Part shown: positions 6,849 through 64,000 of the stretch, in pieces
Numbering within the stretch: the first letter of the stretch is position 1
Layout of the letters: each line of letters opens with the position of its first letter
Assembly (NCBI RefSeq): GCF_900104965.1
Contig: NZ_LT629757.1
Coordinates: 2,604,001-2,668,000, forward strand
Direction of reading: 5' to 3'
DNA length: 64,000 bases
DNA from: Nocardioides scoriae
GTDB lineage: Bacteria; Actinomycetota; Actinomycetes; Propionibacteriales; Nocardioidaceae
Notes under the pieces: generated by a model
The model's input: only the letters and a program-made list of their open reading frames with translations
Database searches by the model: none
Told to the model about the DNA's origin: nothing
Position numbers and translations under genes: made by a program

Positions 6849-7880
6849 ATGCCTGCCGAGCCCTCCCCGAGCTCCGCCTCGGACTCCCCCGCGGGGTCGC
6901 TGTTCCCCGGCGTCCAGCTCCACGTGGTGACCGGCAAGGGAGGCACCGGCAAGTCGACCGTGGCCGCCGCCCTCGCGCTCGCGCTCGCGTCGCGGGGCAG
7001 GACCGTGCTGCTGTGCGAGGTCGAGGGCCGCCAGGGCATCGCCCAGCTGTTCGACGTCGCGCCGCTGCCCTACGAGGAGCGGCTGCTGGTCCGGCCCCAG
7101 GCCGGCGCCGGCGAGGTCTACGCCCTGGCCATCGACCCCGAGTCGGCGCTGCTGGAGTACCTCGACATGTACTACCGCCTCGGCCGCGCCGGCAAGGCGC
7201 TGGACCGCTTCGGCGTCATCGAGTTCGCCACCACCATCGCGCCCGGCGTGCGCGACGTGCTGCTCACCGGCAAGGTCTACGAGGCCGCCAACCGCAACCG
7301 CCGCAACAAGGGCGCCCGGACCTACGACGCCATCGTGCTCGACGCCCCGCCGACCGGCCGGATCACGCAGTTCCTCAACGTCAACAACGAGCTGGCGGGC
7401 CTGGCCAAGGTCGGCCCGATCAAGGCGCAGGCCGACACCGTCACCACCCTGCTCCGCTCGGACCGCACCGCGATCCACCTCGTCACCGTCCTCGAGGAGA
7501 TGCCCGTGCAGGAGACCGGCGACGGCATCGCCGAGCTGCGGGAGGCCGACCTGCCGGTGGGCGGCGTCGTGGTCAACCTGGTGCGGCCGCAGGACCTCGA
7601 CGCCGAGGACCGCGCCGACCTGGTCGAGGGCGGCACCGACCGGGCCGCGCTCGCCTCCAGCCTGGAGAAGGCCGGCGTCACGGCCTCCGAGCCGCTGCTC
7701 GACGGGCTGCTCGAGGAGGGTCTGCACCACGCCGAGCGGCGGCGCCTGGAGGACGGCCAGCGCGCACTGGTGGAGCGCCTCGGCGTCCCGGTGCTGGAGC
7801 TGCCGCGCCTGCCGGGCGGCGTCGACATGGGCGGGCTGTACGAGCTCGCCGAGCACCTCTGCCAGGACGGACTCGCATGA
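6849..7880 (+). CDS. Get3/ArsA-like ATPase, first of pair (Rv3679/BagA-type)
   Basis: 343 aa. A deviant Walker A TGKGGTGKST lies near residue 30, switch-like LLCEVEG after it, and the Walker B/switch II region IVLDAPPTGRI near residue 160. This is the ArsA/Get3 branch of SIMIBI ATPases, which work as dimers. It overlaps the second paralogue by the ATGA of stop and start, so a heterodimer is likely, as reported for the M. tuberculosis Rv3679-Rv3680 pair (called BagA/BagB there). Eukaryotic Get3 inserts tail-anchored proteins; the bacterial client is not settled. It is unlikely to be an arsenite pump: no ars genes are nearby and the arsenite-site Cys residues are not seen. Confidence 0.9.
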   Translation: MPAEPSPSSASDSPAGSLFPGVQLHVVTGKGGTGKSTVAAALALALASRGRTVLLCEVEGRQGIAQLFDVAPLPYEERLLVRPQAGAGEVYALAIDPESALLEYLDMYYRLGRAGKALDRFGVIEFATTIAPGVRDVLLTGKVYEAANRNRRNKGARTYDAIVLDAPPTGRITQFLNVNNELAGLAKVGPIKAQADTVTTLLRSDRTAIHLVTVLEEMPVQETGDGIAELREADLPVGGVVVNLVRPQDLDAEDRADLVEGGTDRAALASSLEKAGVTASEPLLDGLLEEGLHHAERRRLEDGQRALVERLGVPVLELPRLPGGVDMGGLYELAEHLCQDGLA

Positions 7881-9118
7881 CGCCGAAGCAGCCCGGGTCC
7901 CGCTCGGCCCGCACCTCCCCCCGCGTCGGCCCGCTGGTGACCGACCGCCACGGCGTTCCCGTGCCCGACCGCGTCCTGGACGTCGACGCGCTGCTCGACG
8001 ACCGCGAGCGCGGCATCATCGTGTGCTGCGGCTCCGGCGGCGTCGGCAAGACCACCACCTCGGCCGCGCTCGCGCTGCGGGCCGCCGAGCGGGGCCGCAA
8101 GGTCGTGGTGCTCACCATCGACCCGGCCCGCCGGCTGGCGCAGTCGATGGGCATCGAGTCGCTCGACAACACCCCGCGGCCGGTGCCGGGCGTGGGCCGC
8201 GACGGCGGCTCGCTCGACGCGATGATGCTCGACATGAAGCGCACCTTCGACGAGGTGGTGCAGAGCCAGGCCAGCCCCGAGAAAGCGGCCCAGATCCTGG
8301 CCAACCCCTTCTACGTCGCGGTGTCGAGCTCGTTCGCCGGGACGCAGGAGTACATGGCGATGGAGAAGCTGGGCCAGCTCGACGCCGAGGCCCGGCGCAC
8401 CGGCAGCCACGACCTGATCGTGGTCGACACCCCGCCCTCGCGCAGCGCGCTGGACTTCCTCGACGCACCGGAGCGGCTCTCGAGCTTCCTCGACGGGCGG
8501 TTCATGAAGCTGCTGCTGGCGCCGGCCAAGGGACCGGCCCGGCTGATGACGGCGGGCTTCGGGATGGTGACCAACGCGGTCACCAAGATCATCGGCGCCC
8601 AGGTGCTGCAGGACATGAAGGCCTTCGTGGCGGCCTTCGACACCCTGTTCGGCGGCTTCCGGGCGCGGGCGCAGCGCACCTTCGAGCTGCTGCAGGACCG
8701 GCGCACGGCGTTCGTGGTGGTCGCGGTGCCGGAGCCCGACGCGCTGCGCGAGGCGGCGTACTTCGTCGAGCGGCTGCGCGCCGAGGACATGCCGCTGGCG
8801 GGCCTCGTCGTCAACCGGGCGAGCACGCTGCCCGAGGGCAACCTGTCGGCCAACGCCGCGCGCGCCGCCGTGGAGCGGCTGCGCACCTCGGGCGAGGACC
8901 ACGACCTGGCGGCCGGGCTGCTGCGGCTGCACGCCGACCGGCTGATGCTGGTCGAGCGCGAGCAGCGGCTCACGGGCCGCTTCGCCACCAGCCACCCCGA
9001 CGTGGCCACGGCCGTGCTGCCGGCCCTGTCGACCGACGTGCACGACCTCGACGGGCTGCGTCGCATCGGCGAGCTCCTGGCGGACCAGGGTGTCGCCGAG
9101 CGGGACGCCACCGCCTAG
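7877..9118 (+). CDS. Get3/ArsA-like ATPase, second of pair (Rv3680/BagB-type)
   Basis: 413 aa. Walker A CGSGGVGKTTTS near residue 55, TIDPARRLAQSMG (switch I region), and IVVDTPPSRSALDFL near residue 190. The extra length over its partner lies in a helical middle part (TFDEVVQSQASPEKAAQIL and MKAFVAAFDTLFGGFRARA) where Get3 carries its client-binding groove. Its start is fused to the stop of the first ATPase, indicating translational coupling and equal stoichiometry. It is followed by a hairpin and the convergent whiB gene, the same order as in Mycobacterium. Confidence 0.9.
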   Translation: MTPKQPGSRSARTSPRVGPLVTDRHGVPVPDRVLDVDALLDDRERGIIVCCGSGGVGKTTTSAALALRAAERGRKVVVLTIDPARRLAQSMGIESLDNTPRPVPGVGRDGGSLDAMMLDMKRTFDEVVQSQASPEKAAQILANPFYVAVSSSFAGTQEYMAMEKLGQLDAEARRTGSHDLIVVDTPPSRSALDFLDAPERLSSFLDGRFMKLLLAPAKGPARLMTAGFGMVTNAVTKIIGAQVLQDMKAFVAAFDTLFGGFRARAQRTFELLQDRRTAFVVVAVPEPDALREAAYFVERLRAEDMPLAGLVVNRASTLPEGNLSANAARAAVERLRTSGEDHDLAAGLLRLHADRLMLVEREQRLTGRFATSHPDVATAVLPALSTDVHDLDGLRRIGELLADQGVAERDATA

Positions 9119-13721: not shown

Positions 13722-14708
13722 ATGGCGTCAGGACCAGACAGCGACGGTGACGACCGGACCGAGGCCAAGCTCGAGATGCCGTCGTTCTTCGGTCGCAGGA
13801 AGAAGCAGCGGGACGCCGAGCCGACCCCGCCGACGCCGCCGGAGCACGACGAGGGTGCGTCGGCGGCCGCCGAGCCCGCCCCCACCCAGCCGCTGCGCGT
13901 CTCCGACCGGGCCCGCCGCGTCCCGCCCGTGCCGCCGCCGCCCGCCTCCACCCGTCCGGCGTCCGTGGAGCCGGACCCCGCGGCACCGGAGCCGACGGCA
14001 CCGGTGGCCCCAGCGGCCGCGTCCTCCACCACCCCGGCTCCCACACCCCCCGCTGCCCCGCCGGCCCCCCGGCGCCGCCCCGCGGCTGCGTCGGCGCCCG
14101 CGCCCGCGCGGCCGGCCGCGCGCACGGCCCCCGAGACGCCCGCTGCCGCCGGCACCCCGACGACCGAGACCCACCCGGGGCCGGAGATGAGCTGGACGGA
14201 GGAGACGACCGTCCTGACGGCGCCCCGTCCGCCGGCGGACGACGTGGCCACCGACCCGGACGGGTCCGAGGGTGACGGCCCCCGTCGGTCGCGCCGTCCG
14301 CGGCTGCCGGCGGGCGGCGTACGACTGCCGGCGGTGCCGATCCGCCTCGCGGCCGCCCTCACCGGTGTGGTCGTGGCGCTCATGGGCGTCGGGCTGGCCT
14401 GGCTGTCGCTGCAGGGCTGCGCGCTGGTGCGCGGCGTCTCCAGCTGCGGCGGCATCGGCCTGCTCGCGCTGGCCGTCATCGTGGTGGCCGAGATCGTGGT
14501 CGGCGCGGCGCTGCTCAGGGCGTTCCGCTCGGCGACCCCGCTCAGCACCAGCATCCTCGGGGTCGGCCTGGTGGCCGTGGTGGGGCTGCTGCTGCCCTAC
14601 GGCTCCCTCAGCTCGCCCTGGATGACCCTGGTGCTGCCGCTGGTCACCGCCCCCGCGTTCGTCGTCGCCCAGGCCACCGCCGACGCCCGGGTGGACCTCG
14701 GCGACTGA
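13722..14708 (+). CDS. Pro/Ala-rich membrane protein of unknown function
   Basis: 328 aa. Residues 1-205 are a charged then Pro/Ala-rich, low-complexity region without Cys, probably cytosolic and disordered. The C-terminal 120 residues hold about four membrane helices (LAAALTGVVVALMGVGLAWL, GIGLLALAVIVVAEIVVGAAL, ILGVGLVAVVGLLLPY, and the one ending PAFVVAQAT). Two Cys (SLQGCALVRGVSSCGG) lie in the first loop and could form a disulfide. CACGAT lies 6 nt before the ATG. The family is not recognised. It is convergent with asd. Confidence 0.78.
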   Translation: MASGPDSDGDDRTEAKLEMPSFFGRRKKQRDAEPTPPTPPEHDEGASAAAEPAPTQPLRVSDRARRVPPVPPPPASTRPASVEPDPAAPEPTAPVAPAAASSTTPAPTPPAAPPAPRRRPAAASAPAPARPAARTAPETPAAAGTPTTETHPGPEMSWTEETTVLTAPRPPADDVATDPDGSEGDGPRRSRRPRLPAGGVRLPAVPIRLAAALTGVVVALMGVGLAWLSLQGCALVRGVSSCGGIGLLALAVIVVAEIVVGAALLRAFRSATPLSTSILGVGLVAVVGLLLPYGSLSSPWMTLVLPLVTAPAFVVAQATADARVDLGD

Positions 14709-39454: not shown

Positions 39455-39461
39455 CGGCCTC

Positions 39462-39495
39462 GGGCAGTTTCCCCGGCCGACCGGGTAAACTGCCC
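39462..39495. repeat. Second long hairpin in the same spacer
   Basis: GGGCAGTTT and AAACTGCCC arms, extended inward by CCCGG-CCGA-CCGGG with one mismatch. It follows directly on the inverted repeat. The 307-bp spacer 39314-39620 contains no gene. Confidence 0.8.
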
Positions 39496-39620
39496 CGCCC
39501 GGACAAGTCCGACTTGCTGGGCCAGAACCGGCTAGACCACCTCACAATTCGCCGTACGCCGACCCCGGGGGCGTCCTAGCGTCGCGTCGTCCCACCCGTC
39601 CTGTGCTCTCGGGAGCTGCT

Positions 39621-56981: not shown

Positions 56982-56997
56982 CGACCGGGCATCACCC

Positions 56998-57152
56998 CGA
57001 CCGGGCGATAGGCGTACGCCCCAGCCCGCCGACCGGGCACTTGTCGCACGCCCCAGCCCGCCGACCGGGCACTTGTCGCCCGCCCCAGCCCGCCGACCGG
57101 GCACTTGTCGCACGCCCCGGCCCGCCGATCGGGCAGTCCGCGCACGCCCGGC
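56998..57152. repeat. 32-bp tandem repeat array
   Basis: Three near-perfect 32-bp units (57025-57056, 57057-57088, 57089-57120) containing GACCGGGCACTTGTCGC, a degenerate unit before (56998-57024) and a diverged one after (57121-57152). There are no unique spacers. It fills the gap between the convergent M13 and metF genes. Confidence 0.85.
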
Positions 57153-57160
57153 GTACGACG

Positions 57161-57241
57161 AACGCCCGCTCGACGCCTCGCGCCGTGCTGCAATCGCCCG
57201 CTCGACGCCTCCCGGCGTACGCCAAACGCCCGCTCGGCGAC
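57161..57241. repeat. Second 32-bp-period repeat set
   Basis: Units beginning AACGCCCGCTCGACGCCTC, ATCGCCCGCTCGACGCCTC and AACGCCCGCTCGGCGACC recur every 32 bp. The sequence differs from the first set but the period is the same. Confidence 0.7.
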
Positions 57242-58159
57242 CTACGCGGGCAGCTCCGAGAGCAGCTTCTGGCGCCAGGCCTCGGTCTCGGCGACCTGGT
57301 TGAAGGTGAAGACGTGCAGGCCCTCGATGCCGGCAGAGGGCTGGGCGGCCACGACGGCGCAGTCGCGCAGGAAGCGCTCGCCGGTGAAGCCGCCGGGGGC
57401 GGCGAGGCGGGCGAAGGTGCCCTTGTGCTTGGCCAGGAAGCGGGTGGACTCCCCGACGCCGATCTTGGTCGCCATGGTGAGCAGCTTGGCGCGGTCGATG
57501 GGGCCCGGCATGCCGAGCAGCAGCGGCATGGTGATGCCGCGCAGCCGCATCCGAGCGACCCAGTCGCGGATGGTGGCGGGGTCGAAGGTCAGGTTGCTCA
57601 CCACGTGGGTGGCGTGGCGGCGCTTGTCCCACATCGCCTGCACCGTGAGGTCGTCGGCGATGGTGGGGTGGCTCTCGGGGTAGCCCGCGATGCCGACGTG
57701 GACGAAGGGGTCCTCCAGGGTGGCGAGGTCCTCGAGCAGCCCGAAGGCGTCGGCGTAGTCGCCGGCCGGCTCGGCGTCGCCGCCCGGCACGAAGATCGAC
57801 GAGATCCCGGCCTCGCGGAGCCGGGCCCGGATCTCGACGAGCTCGACCCGGTCGCGGACCATCCGCGCCGCGAGGTGGGGCACCACGGCGTACCCGTGGC
57901 CGGCCAGCCGCTCGCTCAGCGCCAGCGTGGCCTCCAGGCCCTTGCCCGGCGAGGCGGTGACTGTGACCGCGACGTCGGTCGGCACCGAGGCGACCACCTT
58001 GTCCTCGGTCGTGGCGGTCGGCAGCACCTCGTAGCGGGTCTGGGTCAGCAGCCGGCGCATCGCCCGGTCGCGGTCGGCGCGCTGCCCGCGCCGGGCCAGC
58101 GGCGCCGACTTGTGCACCGACCTCTGGACGGACTTGTGCACGGACTTCAGGGCGGACAT
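57242..58159 (-). CDS. Methylenetetrahydrofolate reductase (MetF-like)
   Basis: 305 aa. TIM-barrel flavoprotein pattern: VTASPGKGLEATLALSERL, FVPGGDAEPAG, HPTIADDLT, GITMPLLLGMPGPID and a C-terminal LHVFTFNQV. An N-terminal basic repeat KSVHKSVQRSVHKS is unusual. AGGAGG stands 4 nt before the ATG, which overlaps the DUF1638 end by 13 bp. In this operon it probably works in the oxidative direction, methyl-THF to methylene-THF, closing the one-carbon route (inference). Confidence 0.88.
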   Translation of the reverse strand: MSALKSVHKSVQRSVHKSAPLARRGQRADRDRAMRRLLTQTRYEVLPTATTEDKVVASVPTDVAVTVTASPGKGLEATLALSERLAGHGYAVVPHLAARMVRDRVELVEIRARLREAGISSIFVPGGDAEPAGDYADAFGLLEDLATLEDPFVHVGIAGYPESHPTIADDLTVQAMWDKRRHATHVVSNLTFDPATIRDWVARMRLRGITMPLLLGMPGPIDRAKLLTMATKIGVGESTRFLAKHKGTFARLAAPGGFTGERFLRDCAVVAAQPSAGIEGLHVFTFNQVAETEAWRQKLLSELPA

Positions 58160-58761
58160 GCGGCCTCCTCGGGGAGCAGCGACCGGAGGGCCAGGGCCAG
58201 CCCCCCGGCCCCGGTGGGTACGACGTGCAGCGGCAGCCCGAGCCGGTCCGCGGCGTCCTGGGCGAGCGGGCGCAGCTCGGCCAGCTCGGCGGCGTCGTCG
58301 CTCTGGGCGAGCCACACGACGCGGGTGTAGTGGCGGAAGTAGTCGTCGCGCAGCTCGGGGTGGCGGTCGAGCCCCAGCTCGGCGACCACGGTGCGCTCGA
58401 AGGACCGCACCAGGAAGTCGGTCAGCAGGTAGGTGCCGGGCTCGGCGTCGGTCAGCGCCTCGACGGTCTCCGGGCCGGCGTACAGGTCGTAGCAGTGCAG
58501 CCCCGCCAGCCGCGCGACGCCCAGCCGCGTGCAGACCTCGTCGAGCGCGCCGTAGGTGCCGCAGTCGGCGTACCCCACCGCCACCCGGTCGTACGTCGGT
58601 CGCAGCTCCTCGACCAGCGCCTCGACGGCCGCCGCGATGCGATCGGGGCGGTTGTGCAGCAGCGGGGGCAGCGGGTGCACGTCGAGGTCCCACCCCTGGG
58701 CCGCCGCGACCCGGGCCGCCGGCTGCGCGATCGCACCGCAGGCGACCAGGGCGGTGGCCAC
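58147..58761 (-). CDS. DUF1638 family protein
   Basis: 204 aa from GTG 58761. VACGAIAQP, LPPLLHNRPDRI, VGYADCGTYGALD and GLHCYDLYAG match the DUF1638 pattern: conserved Cys in ACG, ADCGT and HCY that could bind a metal. The family is regularly found with MttB-type corrinoid methyltransferases. Function unknown. The GTG lies next to the activator stop (overlap/abutment). The longer frame upstream is a shadow of the activator gene. Confidence 0.84.
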   Translation of the reverse strand: MATALVACGAIAQPAARVAAAQGWDLDVHPLPPLLHNRPDRIAAAVEALVEELRPTYDRVAVGYADCGTYGALDEVCTRLGVARLAGLHCYDLYAGPETVEALTDAEPGTYLLTDFLVRSFERTVVAELGLDRHPELRDDYFRHYTRVVWLAQSDDAAELAELRPLAQDAADRLGLPLHVVPTGAGGLALALRSLLPEEAACPP

Positions 58762-58762
58762 C

Positions 58763-60703
58763 TCAGGCCCCGCCCGGGAAGGACAGCAGGTCCACGAACC
58801 GGTCGTTGAACTCCGGTCGGTCGGAGAGCTCGACGTACTCGACGGTGTCGAGCAGGGTGGCCGCACCGACCCGCTCGCGCACCGAGAGCAGCGCCATCTT
58901 CGCGCCCTCGCCGGCGACGTTGCCGGCCGAGACGATCCGCAGCACGGGGATCTTGGGCACCAGCCCGATCCGGATCGCCGAGGCGGGCGAGAGGTAGGAG
59001 CCGAAGGAGCCCGCCAGCAGCACCTGCTGCACGTCGTCCTGCTCGAGGCCGAGCTGCTCGAGCAGCAGCGCCCAGCCGGTCGCGATCGCGCCCTTGGCGA
59101 ACTGGAGCTCGCGGACGTCGCGCTGGGAGAGGTAGACGCAGTCGGCGACCTCCGCGTCGGGGGTGGGCCGGTGCAGCACGAAGACGCGCTCCTCGCCGAC
59201 CTGGGTGAGCCGGTCGGCCAGCAGCGGCAGCGACTCCTTGGCCGCGTCGGCGGTGACGAAGCGGCCCGACGCGTCCAGCAGCCCGACCCGGACCAGCTCG
59301 GCCACCGCGTCGACCAGGCCGGAGCCGCACAGGCCCCGGGGCGTGGTGTCGCCGATGACCCCGAGCACGACCGTGCCCTCGGCGGGGTCCACGCGGACCA
59401 CCTCGATGGCGCCGTCGGCCGCCCGCATGCCGCACCGGATGGCGCCGCCCTCGAAGGCCGGCCCGGCGGGCGCCGCGGTGGAGACGAGGGTGTCGCCGTC
59501 GCTGAGCACGATCTCGCAGTTGGTGCCGACGTCGATGAACAGCCGGGTCCGCTTGTCGCGGTCCATGCCGGTGGCGAGCATGCCGGCGACGATGTCGCCG
59601 CCGACGTAGGCGCCCAGCGCCGGGAACAGCGCCACCCGGGCCCGCGGGTGCAGGTGCAGGCCGACCTCGCTCGCGAGCACGACCGGCGGGTGGGCGGTCG
59701 GCATCACGAAGGGCGCCACCCCGAGCGGCTCCGGGTCGATGCCGAGCAGCAGCGAGGTCATGGTCGCGTTGCCGGCGACGGCGACCTCGTAGACGTGGGC
59801 GGGGTCGACGCCACCCTCGGTGCAGACCTGGAGCGCCAGCTCGTCGAGGGTCTCGGACGCCAGCTGCTGGAGCCGACCGAGGGCGTCGGGGTCCATCATC
59901 GTGGCGCTGATGCGGCTGATGACGTCACCGCCGAACGGCTGCTGCTTGTTGAGCCGCGAGGCCACCGCGACCGGGGTGCCGGTCGAGAGGTCGAGCAGGG
60001 TCGCGACGACCGTCGTGGTGCCGAGGTCGAAGGCGATGCCGTAGCGGTCGGCCGTGGTGTCGCCCGGCTCGACGTCGACCAGCGCCTCGTCCACGACGAC
60101 GGCGGTCACCTTCCAGTCGGCCTCGCGCAGCACCACCGGCAGGCGCCGGAGCACCGCCAGGTCGACGGTCACCTCGAGGTCGTCGATGGCGTCGGTCAGC
60201 CGCACCAGGTCGGTGCGCTGGTCGGCCAGCGAGGGCGCGACCAGCTCGACGTAGCGCTTCTGCACGGCCGGTCGCAGGATCACCTGGCGCCCGACGCCCA
60301 CGGTGGCGGCCTTGGGCCGCGTCGTCAGCGGCGGCACCTCGACGGCCAGGTCGCGGGTCGCGGTCGCCAGGCACGCGAGCCGCCACCCCTGCTCCAGCTC
60401 GGTGGGCGAGAACGTGCGCCGGTCGTGCCGCGAGACCGGCGTCTGGACGTCGAGCCGCACCTTGCACTTGTGGCAGGTGCCGTGGCCGCCGCAGGTCGAG
60501 TCGATCGCGATGCCGTTCCACGACGCGGAGTCGAAGACCGTCACCCCCGGCGGCACCCGGACGCTGCGGTCCTGGCCGCCCACCACGGTGAACGACAGCT
60601 GCACCCGCCCCGACCCGTCGTGGGCCGGGGTGACCGCGCCCGGGGGTGCCATCAGCCCCTCGCGGGCGATGGCGTCCAGGTCGACGTCAGGACCGGTGCT
60701 CAC
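58763..60703 (-). CDS. Corrinoid activation protein (RACo/RamA-like, 2Fe-2S plus ASKHA)
   Basis: 646 aa. N-terminal ferredoxin-like domain with plant-type [2Fe-2S] Cys: STCGGHGTCHKCKV (near 68, 74, 77) and RLACLA (near 110). A linker domain is followed by an ASKHA ATPase-like part (from about 220) with YGIAFDLGTTTVVATLL, VAGNATMTSLLLG and FIDVGTNCEI. It reduces inactive Co(II) to Co(I) in the corrinoid protein using ATP. GTG start coupled to the pterin methyltransferase. Confidence 0.92.
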   Translation of the reverse strand: MSTGPDVDLDAIAREGLMAPPGAVTPAHDGSGRVQLSFTVVGGQDRSVRVPPGVTVFDSASWNGIAIDSTCGGHGTCHKCKVRLDVQTPVSRHDRRTFSPTELEQGWRLACLATATRDLAVEVPPLTTRPKAATVGVGRQVILRPAVQKRYVELVAPSLADQRTDLVRLTDAIDDLEVTVDLAVLRRLPVVLREADWKVTAVVVDEALVDVEPGDTTADRYGIAFDLGTTTVVATLLDLSTGTPVAVASRLNKQQPFGGDVISRISATMMDPDALGRLQQLASETLDELALQVCTEGGVDPAHVYEVAVAGNATMTSLLLGIDPEPLGVAPFVMPTAHPPVVLASEVGLHLHPRARVALFPALGAYVGGDIVAGMLATGMDRDKRTRLFIDVGTNCEIVLSDGDTLVSTAAPAGPAFEGGAIRCGMRAADGAIEVVRVDPAEGTVVLGVIGDTTPRGLCGSGLVDAVAELVRVGLLDASGRFVTADAAKESLPLLADRLTQVGEERVFVLHRPTPDAEVADCVYLSQRDVRELQFAKGAIATGWALLLEQLGLEQDDVQQVLLAGSFGSYLSPASAIRIGLVPKIPVLRIVSAGNVAGEGAKMALLSVRERVGAATLLDTVEYVELSDRPEFNDRFVDLLSFPGGA

Positions 60704-61616
60704 GCCGTCGCGGGGGCTTCCTGCGCCGCCGCCCCGGCCGCCGCCTTCTCCGCGGCCGCCTTGGCCGCACGGTGCCGCGAGATCCACTCCATGCCCCACT
60801 CGTCGTGGCCCAGCAGCAGGTCGGTCGCCTTGACGGCGTCCACCACCGCCGGCGTGCGGGTGTCCATGATCGCGCTGGTCAGGCCGGCCGCCATCGCCAG
60901 CGAGAGCCAGGTGCCGTTGAGCTCGTGGCGACCGGGCATCCCGAAGGAGACGTTGCTGGCCCCGCAGGTCATGTTGAGGCCGTGCTCGTCGCGGATCCGG
61001 CGCATCGTCTCCAGGGTGGCCAGCCCGGTGGTCTGGTCGGCGCCGATCGGCATGGCGAGCGGGTCGATGACGATGTCGGCCAGCGCGATGCCGTACTCCG
61101 TGGTCGCGACGCGCACGATCTTCTCGACCAGCTCGAGCCGCTTGGCGGGCTCCATCGGGATCTCGTCGACGTCGTTGGGCAGCGCGATCACCGCGGCGTC
61201 GTACTTCTTCACGAGCGGGAGGATCTGCTCCATGCGCTCGTCCTCGGCGGTGATCGAGTTGACCAGCGCCCGCCCGTGGTACGCCGAGAGGCCGGCCTCG
61301 AGCGCCTCCACGACGCTGCTGTCGATGCACAGCGGCAGGTCGGTCAGCTCCTGGACCATCGTGACGACCTTGGCCAGCAGCTCGGCCTCGTCGACGAGCG
61401 GCACGCCCATGTTGATGTCGAGCACGTCGGCGCCGCCCGCGACCTGCGCCTTGACGTCGCGCTCGACGGCCGACAGGTCGCCGGCCCGGATCTGCTCCTG
61501 GAAGATGCGCCGACCGGTCGGGTTGATGCGCTCGCCGATGAGGCAGAAGCGGTGCTGGCCGCCGATGACGACCTCGCGCGAGGCGGACCGGATCCGCGTC
61601 TCCTGCAGCGGGGCGC

Positions 61617-61620
<4 letters not shown>
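60700..61620 (-). CDS. MtgA-like methylcorrinoid:tetrahydrofolate methyltransferase
   Basis: 306 aa. The pterin-binding TIM barrel of the DHPS/MetH/AcsE type: LIGERINPTG, DVLDINMGVP, LPLCIDSS, ALVNSITAED, MTCGASNVSFGMPGR. It moves the methyl group from methyl-Co(III) to tetrahydrofolate. The C-terminal 35 residues are an Ala-rich tail. ATG coupled to the corrinoid protein, GTGA to the activator. Confidence 0.92.
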
Positions 61621-62278
<658 letters not shown>

Positions 62279-62282
<4 letters not shown>

Positions 62283-63073
62283 CTCACGCCTTTCGTGCTG
62301 CTGCCGGTGGAGCTGCCGGGTCGCAGGCGCCTCGTCAGCGCCTGCGTGTGGTCGATCAGGAGCTGTCCGATCTCCTCGGCGCGCGCCTCGAGCCGCGCCG
62401 TGGGACCGGACACACCGACCGCGGCGACCACGTCGTCGTCGGGGCCGAACACAGGGGCGGCGACACCGGAGAGCCCGACCTCGAGCTCGTCGTGGGTGAC
62501 GGCGTAGCCGCGCTGCCGCGCCCACTCGAGGTCGCCCTCGAGGTCGACGCGGGTGGTGATGGTCTGGTCGGTCAGCTGGAGCAGCCGACCGGCCGGGAGC
62601 TCGAGCACCTTCCAGGCGAGCAGGACCTTGCCCAGGGCCGAGCAGTGCAGCGGGACCTCGACGTCGTTCCAGTCGCGGGCGCCGAGCAGGTAGGTGCCGT
62701 CGACCTGGGCGACGTGCTCGACCCGGCCGCCGTTGTCGACCGCGAGGTGGACGGTCTCGCCGGTCGCGGCGCCCACCTCCTCCAGGACGGGCTGCGCCAG
62801 GCGGGTGAGCTGCTGGTGGCGGTCGTGGCGGGCGGCGTACAGCACGAACAGCGGGCCGCCGACGTACTCCCCGTGCGCGGTGCGGGTGACCAGCCGGGTG
62901 CGCTCCAGGGCGGCGAGCAACCGCGACGTCGTCGACCGGGCCAGCCCCGAGGACTCGCTGAGCTCGGCGAAGGTGACCGCGGCGTCGGCCTCGACGACCC
63001 GGGTGAGCAGCGCTGCCGCGCGGTCGACCGCCTGGGTCCCGCTCGCGCCGATCGCCTCTGGTCTGCCCGTCAC
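62279..63073 (-). CDS. IclR family regulator of the corrinoid methyltransferase operon
   Basis: 264 aa from GTG 63073, which has GGAGGG 9 nt upstream; an ATG at 63148 would add 25 residues but overlaps a palindrome. HTH: FAELSESSGLARSTTSRLLAALERTRLV; effector domain with GTYLLGARDWNDVEVPLHCSALGKVLLA. First gene of the leftward operon, divergent from mttB; it probably senses the methylated substrate or product (inference). Confidence 0.92.
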
Positions 63074-63126
63074 GCTTGACCGCCCTCCGTGGTCCGGTCC
63101 AAGGTTGTCCCGCAGGGACTCCCACG

Positions 63127-63148
63127 ATGTGGAACTCATTGCCCACAT
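63127..63148. promoter_or_regulatory. Candidate IclR operator
   Basis: ATGTGG-N10-CCACAT, perfect 6-bp halves between iclR and mttB. It covers the -35 area of a mttB promoter whose -10 would be TAGGTT (63157-63162). Confidence 0.5.
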
Positions 63149-63156
63149 GGTGAGGC

Positions 63157-63162
63157 TAGGTT
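63157..63162 (+). promoter_or_regulatory. -10 element of mttB-like gene
   Basis: TAGGTT, about 45 nt before the region carrying AGGAG and the ATG at 63214. The leader would be short. Confidence 0.4.
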
Positions 63163-63213
63163 TCCTGCACAGCCAGGGTCAAGCACTCGAGCCGCGCCAG
63201 TTCAGGAGCCGAC

Positions 63214-64000
63214 ATGTTCCGCAACCGCATGCCCCGCTACGAGGTCCTCTCGCAGGACGCCATGGCCACCCTCGACAAGGGGTGGCGACGGCTCGTGTCC
63301 GAGCTGGGGGTGGAGTTCATGAGCCAGCGCGCGCTCGACCTGCTCGGCGCCGCCGGCCAGAAGATCGAGGGCGACAAGGTCTTCTTCGACCCCGACTGGA
63401 TCCTCGAGCAGGTGGCCAAGGCGCCCCGGGAGTTCGACCTGCAGGCCCGCAACCCCGCGCACGACCTGCACATCGGCGGCGACGCGATGGCCTTCGGCGC
63501 GGTCTACGGCCCGCCGTTCGTCCGCGAGGGGCAGGTGCGGCGCGACGCCACCATGGAGGACTTCCGCAACTTCACCAAGCTGGCCCAGTCGTTCCCCACG
63601 CTCGACTCCGCCGGCGGCGTCATCTGCGAGCCCAACGACGCCCCGCTCGACAGCCGCCACCTCGACATGACCTACGCGCTGGCGACGCTGACCGACAAGC
63701 CCTTCATGGGCAACGTCGTCTCGGGCCCCAACGCGATCGACACCATCGAGCTGACCTCGATCCTGCTCGGCGGCGGCCAGGGCCGCGAGGCCGGCCGCGC
63801 CAGGATGGAGCAGACCCCCGCGCTGATCTCGCTCATCAACTGCAACTCCCCGCTGCGCTGGGACGACCGGATGCTCGACTCGCTGTTCGAGTACGCCGAG
63901 GCCAACCAGGCGGTCGTGCTCACGCCCTTCATCCTCATGGGCGCGATGAGCCCGGTGACGATCCCGGCGGCGCTGGTCCAGCAGATCGCCGAGGCGCTCA
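63214..64000 (+). CDS. MttB superfamily methyltransferase, trimethylamine/betaine type (5' part)
   Basis: 262 codons are visible; the gene runs off the window. It begins MFRNRMPRYEVLSQD, with LGVEFMSQRALDLL, GAVYGPPFVREGQVRR, GGVICEPNDAPLDSRHLDMTYAL and FILMGAMSPVTIPAAL, the MttB/MtgB pattern. AGGAG lies 5 nt before the ATG. It cleaves a methyl group from a quaternary or tertiary amine onto Co(I). The pyrrolysine position of true MttB (near residue 334) is not covered, so it cannot be excluded, but no amber occurs in the visible part. Probably non-Pyl (MtgB-like). Confidence 0.93.
   Translation, partial: MFRNRMPRYEVLSQDAMATLDKGWRRLVSELGVEFMSQRALDLLGAAGQKIEGDKVFFDPDWILEQVAKAPREFDLQARNPAHDLHIGGDAMAFGAVYGPPFVREGQVRRDATMEDFRNFTKLAQSFPTLDSAGGVICEPNDAPLDSRHLDMTYALATLTDKPFMGNVVSGPNAIDTIELTSILLGGGQGREAGRARMEQTPALISLINCNSPLRWDDRMLDSLFEYAEANQAVVLTPFILMGAMSPVTIPAALVQQIAEAL

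Follow-up and report, generated by a model that had tools for sequence, protein, structure and literature searches.

At the right-hand end of a 64,000-nucleotide stretch of Nocardioides scoriae DNA (the window), a group of genes for corrinoid-dependent methyl transfer raises the question of what such an island demethylates in an aerobic, soil-type actinobacterium and where the methyl groups go. Our analysis suggests that it is very probably an aerobic cobalamin-dependent glycine betaine demethylase, which would feed methyl groups into THF oxidation. The initial annotation had listed genes for an MttB-type methyltransferase, a corrinoid protein, a pterin methyltransferase, a RACo-type activator, a DUF1638 protein, an MTHFR and an IclR regulator. 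All were found, each with Pfam matches exceeding the curated cut-offs. All but mttB form a leftward run with junctions of -13, +1, -4, -4 and -4 nt. The earlier description of genes mostly overlapping by 4 bp or less agrees with four of these five junctions, and the -13 value depends on the chosen start. The gene set thus stood, but the end placed at 64000 was too short, as purU and then a block of choline, betaine and dimethylglycine genes follow beyond it.

The mttB gene (63214..64000, plus strand) continues past the window to 64674. A truncation or frameshift in this part had been considered, but the gene is intact: its 486-aa frame has no internal stop or in-frame amber codon, and hence no pyrrolysine codon. 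The product belongs to the MttB superfamily and matched the MTTB domain (PF06253) with 612.8 bits over profile positions 25-500 of 500. It scored 437 bits with Sinorhizobium meliloti 4yyc (44% identity to the S. meliloti protein), 374-376 bits with Desulfitobacterium hafniense MtgB and 123 bits with pyrrolysine-type MttB. Phylogenetic analysis placed it in a clade of 21 rows with 100/100 support, apart from both the S. meliloti 4yyc clade and Desulfitobacterium MtgB in a tree built without R. pomeroyi proteins. To our knowledge, this clade contains no characterised enzyme, and it would be a new, actinobacterial branch of the superfamily. Further MttB superfamily members have other substrates. 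Of eight plasmid homologs whose surroundings we inspected, five (from Rhodobacter, Leisingera (two), Mesorhizobium and a second one from S. meliloti) have a different gene context in which no corrinoid gene is listed up to 9 kb away; superfamily membership alone therefore does not imply the substrate. Y94, N199, R309, H345 and F/Y353 were predicted as docking residues of MtgB (PMC6855144). The window protein keeps the first four and has Gly at position 353, but these four are also common outside the clade and are shared too widely to prove specificity.

The remaining methyl-transfer proteins are encoded on the minus strand. The corrinoid-binding protein MtgC (61617..62282; PF02310/PF02607, 107/58 bits) has a DxHxxG motif at residue 102 and is 44% identical to its S. 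meliloti counterpart; its match to NCBIfam MtgC_2 (188 bits) is under the cut-off of 370. Next to it is a methylcobalamin:THF methyltransferase, an MtgD/AcsE-like pterin-binding protein (60700..61620; PF00809, 104 bits; PRK07535, 312 bits, cut-off 259), which shares 47% identity with its equivalent in S. meliloti. It had been called MtgA-like. The assignment as a pterin methyltransferase holds, but the protein is AcsE/MetH-like, and Desulfitobacterium MtgA (6SJ8, 6SK4 type) was absent among the 17 sequences matching it at E ≤ 0.001; a more distant kinship may exist. The RACo-type ATP-dependent reductive activator (58763..60703) carries an N-terminal 2Fe-2S domain (Fer2, 28 bits) followed by RACo_linker, Raco_middle and RACo_C_ter domains (84/195/253 bits). 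It scored 331 bits with 3zyy and has CX5CX2C at 71 and RLAC at 108. In relatives, RACo re-reduces the corrinoid after it has slipped to Co(II). The DUF1638 protein (58147..58761; PF07796, 85 bits), an accessory of corrinoid systems, is 42% identical to that of the S. meliloti set. Thus a pfam06253 protein is encoded together with separate corrinoid and pterin proteins, as in aerobic MtgBCD systems, and both reactivation genes of those systems (RamA/RACo and DUF1638) are in the island.

The direction of the pathway is suggested by the MTHFR-like protein (57242..58159, minus strand), predicted to oxidise methyl-THF to methylene-THF (MetF2 role). Its PF02219 match is weak (35 bits, cut-off 24). 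Its best solved relative was 7xg9, a 5,10-methylenetetrahydrofolate reductase, which scored 105.7 bits in the aligned region; the second-ranked sequence reached 34.6 bits. We take 7xg9 to be the Sphingobium SYK-6 enzyme, a partner of THF-dependent O-demethylases. A review describes the SYK-6 MTHFR subfamily as favouring oxidation of methyl-THF (PMC13001107). A second, canonical MTHFR (294 bits) is encoded elsewhere in the genome, which also encodes a cytochrome oxidase subunit I family protein. These observations support the earlier proposal that this aerobic actinobacterium runs a corrinoid route in the oxidative direction, starting from a betaine-like compound and leading to methyl-THF and methylene-THF, and the island would be a further physiological setting for the oxidative MTHFR type. 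Among 197 genomes of the family, the MTHFR-like protein was present in all 64 with mttB and in 8 others. Of 58 relatives, 56 have the gene on the opposite strand, so its operon position is particular to close kin of the window. The purU gene and the mttB stop codon share 1 nt; among 68 loci, 21 had no purU detected within 6.5 kb downstream.

Past purU, a second iclR, betB, betA (808 bits, equivalog cut-off 732), proVWX-like genes (proV and a ProX-like protein were identified), a dimethylglycine-dehydrogenase-type gene whose product carries a GcvT domain, and etfBA extend to about 81366 in extended coordinates. Given the betaine and dimethylglycine genes downstream, the most likely reaction is demethylation of glycine betaine to dimethylglycine. 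A homolog of betA, betB, proV or the dehydrogenase gene was found in 56 of the 60 loci reaching 11.3 kb downstream, and none in the other four. No Ring_hydroxyl_A oxygenase (GbcA type, of the Rieske glycine betaine monooxygenase GbcAB) was matched in the N. scoriae genome; control rings were matched in 4 of 14 genomes.

Conservation of the gene set greatly exceeds chance. Across 80 related loci, with only covered places counted, we found the corrinoid gene in 74/74, the pterin methyltransferase in 71/71, RACo in 66/66 and DUF1638 in 62/62. Across the family (64 genomes with and 133 without mttB, related genomes whose counts are not independent), RACo was present in 63/64 mttB genomes versus 1/133 others, and the dehydrogenase in 64/64 (62 close) versus 7/133. 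Two mttB genomes (G404 and G426) had the dehydrogenase at just 39-40%. The mttB and dehydrogenase genes were at most 34 kb apart in all 50 genomes that had both on one contig; they were on different contigs in 14.

The regulator gene iclR1 (62279..63073, minus strand; PF01614/PF09339, 110/40 bits) is present in 75 of the 76 covered loci and diverges from mttB in each of them. Between the two genes, overlapping palindromes around TGTGGAAC form a predicted IclR1 operator (63120..63158, plus strand), which agreed at 29 of 35 positions and scored 52.6 bits against a matrix built from 58 other loci. The next best place in 94 kb, overlapping the operator, scored 3.9 bits, and the best of five simple shuffles -9.6. 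This promoter motif was clear (at least 22/35) in 67 of 81 upstream regions; the other 14 scored 18-21, near the shuffle level. IclR1 is predicted to be the switch of the demethylase promoter, and such regulation of the actinobacterial set would be new.

In all five genomes with the close dehydrogenase but without mttB, we detected a GcvT/DmdA-type protein with 79-100% identity to the query; none of the 64 mttB genomes had it at this level. In two of the five, which belong to the same genus (g244), the operator motif of mttB starts approximately 100 bp before the GcvT-type gene (38.0 and 29.9 bits); the operator evidence is thus limited to a single genus. The closest solved relative of the protein was 3tfh, listed as a GcvT-like aminomethyltransferase, which we take to be SAR11 DmdA, the DMSP demethylase. 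The GcvT-type protein differs from DmdA in its NCBIfam DMSP demethylase scores, which at 248.5-255.5 bits do not reach the cut-off of 410, and in its gene setting. It is probably not a DMSP enzyme, as it is encoded with betaine and dimethylglycine genes. We lean slightly towards the view that the first glycine betaine demethylation in Nocardioidaceae is an exchangeable slot, filled in most betaine users by the MttB/corrinoid/RACo chain. Several lineages would have exchanged the entire cobalamin module for a single GcvT/DmdA-type protein, an undescribed B12-free demethylase passing the methyl directly to THF, with the MTHFR-like and dimethylglycine dehydrogenase genes kept and, in one genus, IclR1 and the operator as well. 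This apparent swap would be new and makes the roles of both the mttB set and the B12-free gene testable. It offers related strain pairs for testing the cobalamin dependence of the same pathway, and the GcvT-type protein is a candidate new THF-dependent demethylase.

Other explanations were considered. One is that MttB demethylates a different quaternary amine, such as proline betaine, carnitine or ergothioneine, and merely lies near choline genes. The superfamily has several substrates, as indicated by papers on MtyB, choline and glycine betaine, and the window protein belongs to a clade without a tested member and is unlike MtgB at position 353. However, the tight linkage of the dehydrogenase, present in every mttB genome, and the replacement of MttB by the GcvT-type protein in 5/5 genomes make this improbable. 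Context, co-occurrence and swap instead indicate glycine betaine. The initial annotation's betaine-like substrate thus stands, and its identity, left open there, is narrowed. It is more improbable still that a BHMT-like protein encoded elsewhere demethylates glycine betaine while the island has another purpose. This protein did match PRK07534 (betaine-homocysteine methyltransferase) with 277.5 bits, but the curated cut-off is 338, a MetH structure was matched better than BHMT structures (174 versus 86 bits), and it is unlinked to the island and missing in 29/64 mttB genomes and 5/5 GcvT-type genomes.

An addition to, rather than a replacement of, the glycine betaine explanation is that the corrinoid and pterin proteins additionally contribute to methionine synthesis together with an unlinked MtgE/Bmt-like homocysteine methyltransferase, as in Ruegeria pomeroyi. 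Such a protein, with 45% identity to S. meliloti bmt, is encoded at C1:2324907-2325824. It was found in 36 of the 197 family genomes (E ≤ 1e-60), 35 with mttB and the 36th with RACo, and in 0/5 GcvT-type genomes. This nested pattern may, however, reflect shared ancestry, 0/5 gives p = 0.025 only, and the protein is missing from 29 of the 64 mttB genomes. The dual role is not needed either, because the genome has MetH (a 1246-aa open frame; TIGR02082, 1285 bits on part of the sequence). We regard it as a tentative possibility, somewhat less probable than its absence.

In the preferred glycine betaine pathway, ProVWX-like proteins, BetA and BetB would import choline and oxidise it to glycine betaine. 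MttB would transfer one N-methyl group to the Co(I) centre of the corrinoid protein, with dimethylglycine as the product, and the MtgD-like pterin protein would pass the methyl to THF. The MTHFR-like protein would convert methyl-THF to methylene-THF, FolD-type steps would follow, and PurU would free formate. RACo would re-reduce corrinoid that has slipped to Co(II), with the DUF1638 protein as a helper. Dimethylglycine would be oxidised by the downstream-encoded dehydrogenase with EtfBA, and IclR1 would control demethylation via the operator upstream of mttB. The sequences themselves show the gene content and order, their conservation and co-occurrence and a conserved promoter motif; the substrate, the direction and the function of the operator are inferred. 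Both glycine betaine and choline occur abundantly as osmolytes. The island offers named candidates for every step and would link aerobic betaine use to cobalamin supply. In the open-licence literature, we found no paper tying the first glycine betaine demethylation to genes in Nocardioidaceae.

The machinery itself is already known: an aerobic MtgBCD glycine betaine demethylase was shown genetically in R. pomeroyi (PMC12478193). Plasmid annotations of S. meliloti and Paracoccus list this gene set as well, so the initial view that such sets are best known from anaerobes has to be widened to aerobes. An Azoarcus plasmid homolog of MttB is also near betA, betB, a choline-binding protein gene and folD. 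The island resembles the aerobic pseudomonadotal systems in its MttB-type, separate corrinoid and pterin proteins, RamA/RACo, DUF1638, second MTHFR, homocysteine methyltransferase relative in the genome and aerobic host. It differs in its MttB, which is in a clade apart from the S. meliloti protein, and in being clustered with choline, dimethylglycine and IclR genes, unlike in R. pomeroyi. Its MTHFR is stand-alone, whereas Sinorhizobium and Paracoccus are annotated with an MTHFR and C-terminal-domain pair. MetH is retained; its loss, recorded for 108 of 156 genomes (PMC12478193), is common but not universal in aerobic MtgBCD systems and does not define them. D. hafniense MtgABC shares a non-pyrrolysine MttB superfamily member, a corrinoid protein and methyl transfer to THF, but belongs to an anaerobe, uses another pterin methyltransferase (its own MtgA) and has the lower-scoring MtgB. 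The SYK-6 MTHFR is the closest solved relative and shares methyl-THF oxidation as C1 entry. There the methyl donor is a lignin aromatic, via a LigM-type enzyme, whereas here methyl groups would arrive through the corrinoid chain or, in mttB-less relatives, through the GcvT/DmdA-type protein.

The initial annotation had allowed for mttB being truncated or frameshifted beyond position 64000. When read past the window edge, however, mttB (63214–64674) was intact, encoding 486 aa with no internal stop, and it is the single PF06253 gene in a genome assembled as one contig of 4.06 Mb. Six genes run leftward from mttB on the opposite strand. They encode, in order, an IclR regulator (IclR1), the corrinoid protein, the pterin methyltransferase, the RACo-type activator, DUF1638 and the MTHFR-like protein, and the junctions between them, counted from IclR1, are −4, −4, −4, +1 and −13 nt. 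On the right side, purU (formyl-THF deformylase, 337 bits versus a PurU cut-off of 286) shares one base with the mttB stop and is followed by genes for a histidine kinase (Pfam) and RNase H (translation read by eye) and then, in order, by a second iclR gene (IclR2), betB, betA, proV, genes for a ProW-like permease (named from its translation by eye), a ProX-like binding protein and a two-domain, dimethylglycine-type dehydrogenase that includes a GcvT domain, etfB and etfA. Downstream names other than betA, proV and purU rest partly on context, because only these three pass NCBIfam cut-offs there. Between the operon end and an M13 peptidase gene (56990–57239), a 32-nt unit is tandemly repeated, in degenerate form, approximately 8 times.

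Judged from their sequences, the parts of the island look functional. The DxHxxG motif is kept in the corrinoid protein, and the CX5CX2C cluster motif in RACo, which aligned with 3zyy over most of its length (331 bits). The MTHFR-like protein scores weakly against its Pfam family, and its best solved relative by far (105.7 bits versus 34.6 for the next) is 7xg9, which we take to be the Sphingobium SYK-6 enzyme. A review describes the SYK-6 subfamily as favouring oxidation of methyl-THF (PMC13001107). As a canonical MTHFR (294 bits) occurs elsewhere in the genome, the island protein represents a second enzyme, with a probably catabolic role. In DUF1638 (58147–58761), Cys8, Cys67, Cys90 and His36 were invariant among 36 aligned sequences and might have a metal-holding or redox role.

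Relatives of the locus were sought by a scan with one genome per species, and the best 80 of 441 were retained, coming from Nocardioides, Marmoricola, Phycicoccus, Asanoa, Kineosporia, Geodermatophilaceae and others. With the counts restricted, among these best 80, to loci whose DNA extends over the position concerned, we found the corrinoid gene in 74/74, the pterin protein gene in 71/71, RACo in 66/66, DUF1638 in 62/62 and IclR1 in 75/76 loci. The MTHFR-like gene was present in 58/61 loci, 56 times on the plus strand and twice on the minus strand, the orientation seen in the window. These counts, strand included, indicate that the corrinoid core is fixed and that the in-operon MTHFR-like gene of the window is a local rearrangement. 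In the same set, purU was found within 6.5 kb in 47/68, betB in 47/64 and betA in 44/60 covered loci, and 56 of the 60 loci extending 11.3 kb downstream had at least one of betA, betB, proV and the dehydrogenase anywhere in the stretch.

A motif near TTCCATgaTGTGGAACNNNNGTCCCACATCATGAGGCTA was present upstream of mttB in most loci: 67 of 81 upstream regions (the window and the 80 loci) matched at least 22 of 35 motif positions, compared with 0.02% of 4050 trials with shuffled regions. The remaining 14 scored 18–21 of 35, which is weak one by one (shuffles reach 18 in 6%). With a matrix built from 58 strong sites, window excluded, the predicted operator at 63120 scored 52.6 bits, versus 3.9 bits for the next site in 94 kb, which overlaps it, and −9.6 bits for the best in five shuffled copies. 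Separate palindromes built from GACCGGGGAAACTGCCCG, with no called gene there, were observed at 39461–39496 and, in the extended DNA past the window edge (L002), at 14273–14310, where the palindrome is perfect over 38 nt; two sites with 1–2 mismatches occur in the window versus 0.03 expected by chance.

We then have the occurrence of these genes in 197 genomes of the family (MttB type at E≤1e-100, dehydrogenase at E≤1e-150), which are related to one another and in some cases fragmented. The MttB type was detected in 64 genomes and the dehydrogenase in 71, comprising all 64 mttB genomes (62 with a close copy) versus 7/133 without mttB. Both genes shared a contig in 50 genomes, always within 34 kb and in 49 cases within 25 kb; in 14 they were on separate contigs. 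RACo accompanied mttB in 63/64 genomes and occurred in one other, and the MTHFR-like protein in 64/64 and eight others. We relied on this pattern rather than on a Fisher test, because kinship of the genomes inflates any p value. All evidence here comes from sequence, and the substrate, direction and regulation of the island are inferred.

Five genomes had a close dehydrogenase without mttB. In four of these stretches a GcvT-fold protein of 434–435 aa was encoded (L130:12889–14193, L128:4468–5772, L129:5493–6797 and L127:5549–6856), clustered with genes for the MTHFR-like protein, IclR2, the dehydrogenase and etfA, etfB being called in three; in the fifth (G416), the stretch stops beside the dehydrogenase, and the GcvT-type and MTHFR-like genes are on other contigs. 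The best NCBIfam match of this protein was DMSP demethylase (248.5–255.5 bits, below the cut-off of 410), and the best structure match was 3tfh (166 bits). Copies at ≥78% identity occurred in 6/197 genomes, namely these five and G446, and in none of the 64 mttB genomes. G446 is 77% complete, and both mttB and the dehydrogenase were sought there without success. Distant copies (44–45%) in seven genomes, four of them with mttB (G398, G405, G421 and G433), are taken as paralogs. The GcvT/DmdA-like protein is a candidate for a B12-free glycine betaine demethylase that replaces the corrinoid module in relatives without mttB. Three of the five genomes belong to genera that also hold mttB genomes (g242, g257 and g258) and two share g244, which suggests that the exchange happened repeatedly. 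In L128 (g244), the run of MTHFR-like, IclR1, purU and IclR2 genes corresponds to the arrangement in L010 and similar Nocardioides loci minus the DUF1638-RACo-pterin-corrinoid block and mttB, although the bet genes are on the other side. IclR1 was found in L128 and L129, and the operator matrix scored 38.0 and 29.9 bits there, respectively, approximately 100 bp before the GcvT-type gene, so in this genus regulator and predicted site appear to have stayed with the demethylation step despite the changed chemistry. Nothing above 0 bits was detected in L127, L130, L131, L136 and L137, nor IclR1 in L127, L130 and L131; in other mttB-less lineages either both were lost or the stretches are too short to tell. 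In L127, a formate-THF ligase gene (6853–8571; PF01268, 807 bits) adjoins the GcvT-type gene and no purU was recognised within the 20 kb examined; drainage of formyl-THF may therefore yield ATP there. Distant GcvT/DmdA-like genes (44–45%) also share contigs with MTHFR-like paralogs (42–47%) in G397:C159, G405:C147, G421:C291, G433:C214 and G435:C101, and possibly represent DMSP or other demethylation modules.

The window's genome carries both MetH and an MtgE/Bmt-like homocysteine methyltransferase (C1:2324907–2325824; L088:1480–2403, minus strand), located approximately 340 kb away and 45% identical to S. meliloti bmt. The latter was found in 36 of the 197 family genomes; 35 of these have mttB and the remaining one (G510) has RACo. 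This nesting within corrinoid-set genomes supports a possible additional role of the corrinoid protein in methionine synthesis. Second MttB paralogs, 40–42% identical to the window MttB, were observed in G402:C87, G411:C191, G424:C276 and G430:C238, with a RACo match within about 2 kb on the same contig; they probably belong to a further corrinoid system that acts on a different substrate.

The window MttB matched Desulfitobacterium MtgB (2qne, 9yce) with 374–376 bits, S. meliloti 4yyc with 437 bits and pyrrolysine-type MttB with 123 bits, and in a 57-row tree its clade (21 rows, support 100/100) was distinct from both the 4yyc clade and MtgB. An Azoarcus plasmid MttB homolog was near betA, betB and folD; no corrinoid gene was listed within 9 kb of the five other plasmid MttB homologs examined, and these gene tables have gaps. 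In R. pomeroyi, mtgC and mtgD mutants did not grow on glycine betaine, Mtg proteins were induced, and the authors linked the mtg set to methionine synthesis (PMC12478193). The same study attributed 5% of the mtgC reads from the ocean to Actinomycetota; its main text has no word starting with Nocardio (PMC12478193). S. meliloti and Paracoccus methylovorus have the same annotated gene set, with divergent mttB, on plasmids; the MttB, corrinoid, pterin and DUF1638 proteins of the island are 42–47% identical to S. meliloti counterparts and its RACo is 33% identical to that of Paracoccus. The MTHFR of these sets is of another kind (25 bits). Given the R. pomeroyi results and the gene sets of these relatives, the mechanism of the island is already known in kind.
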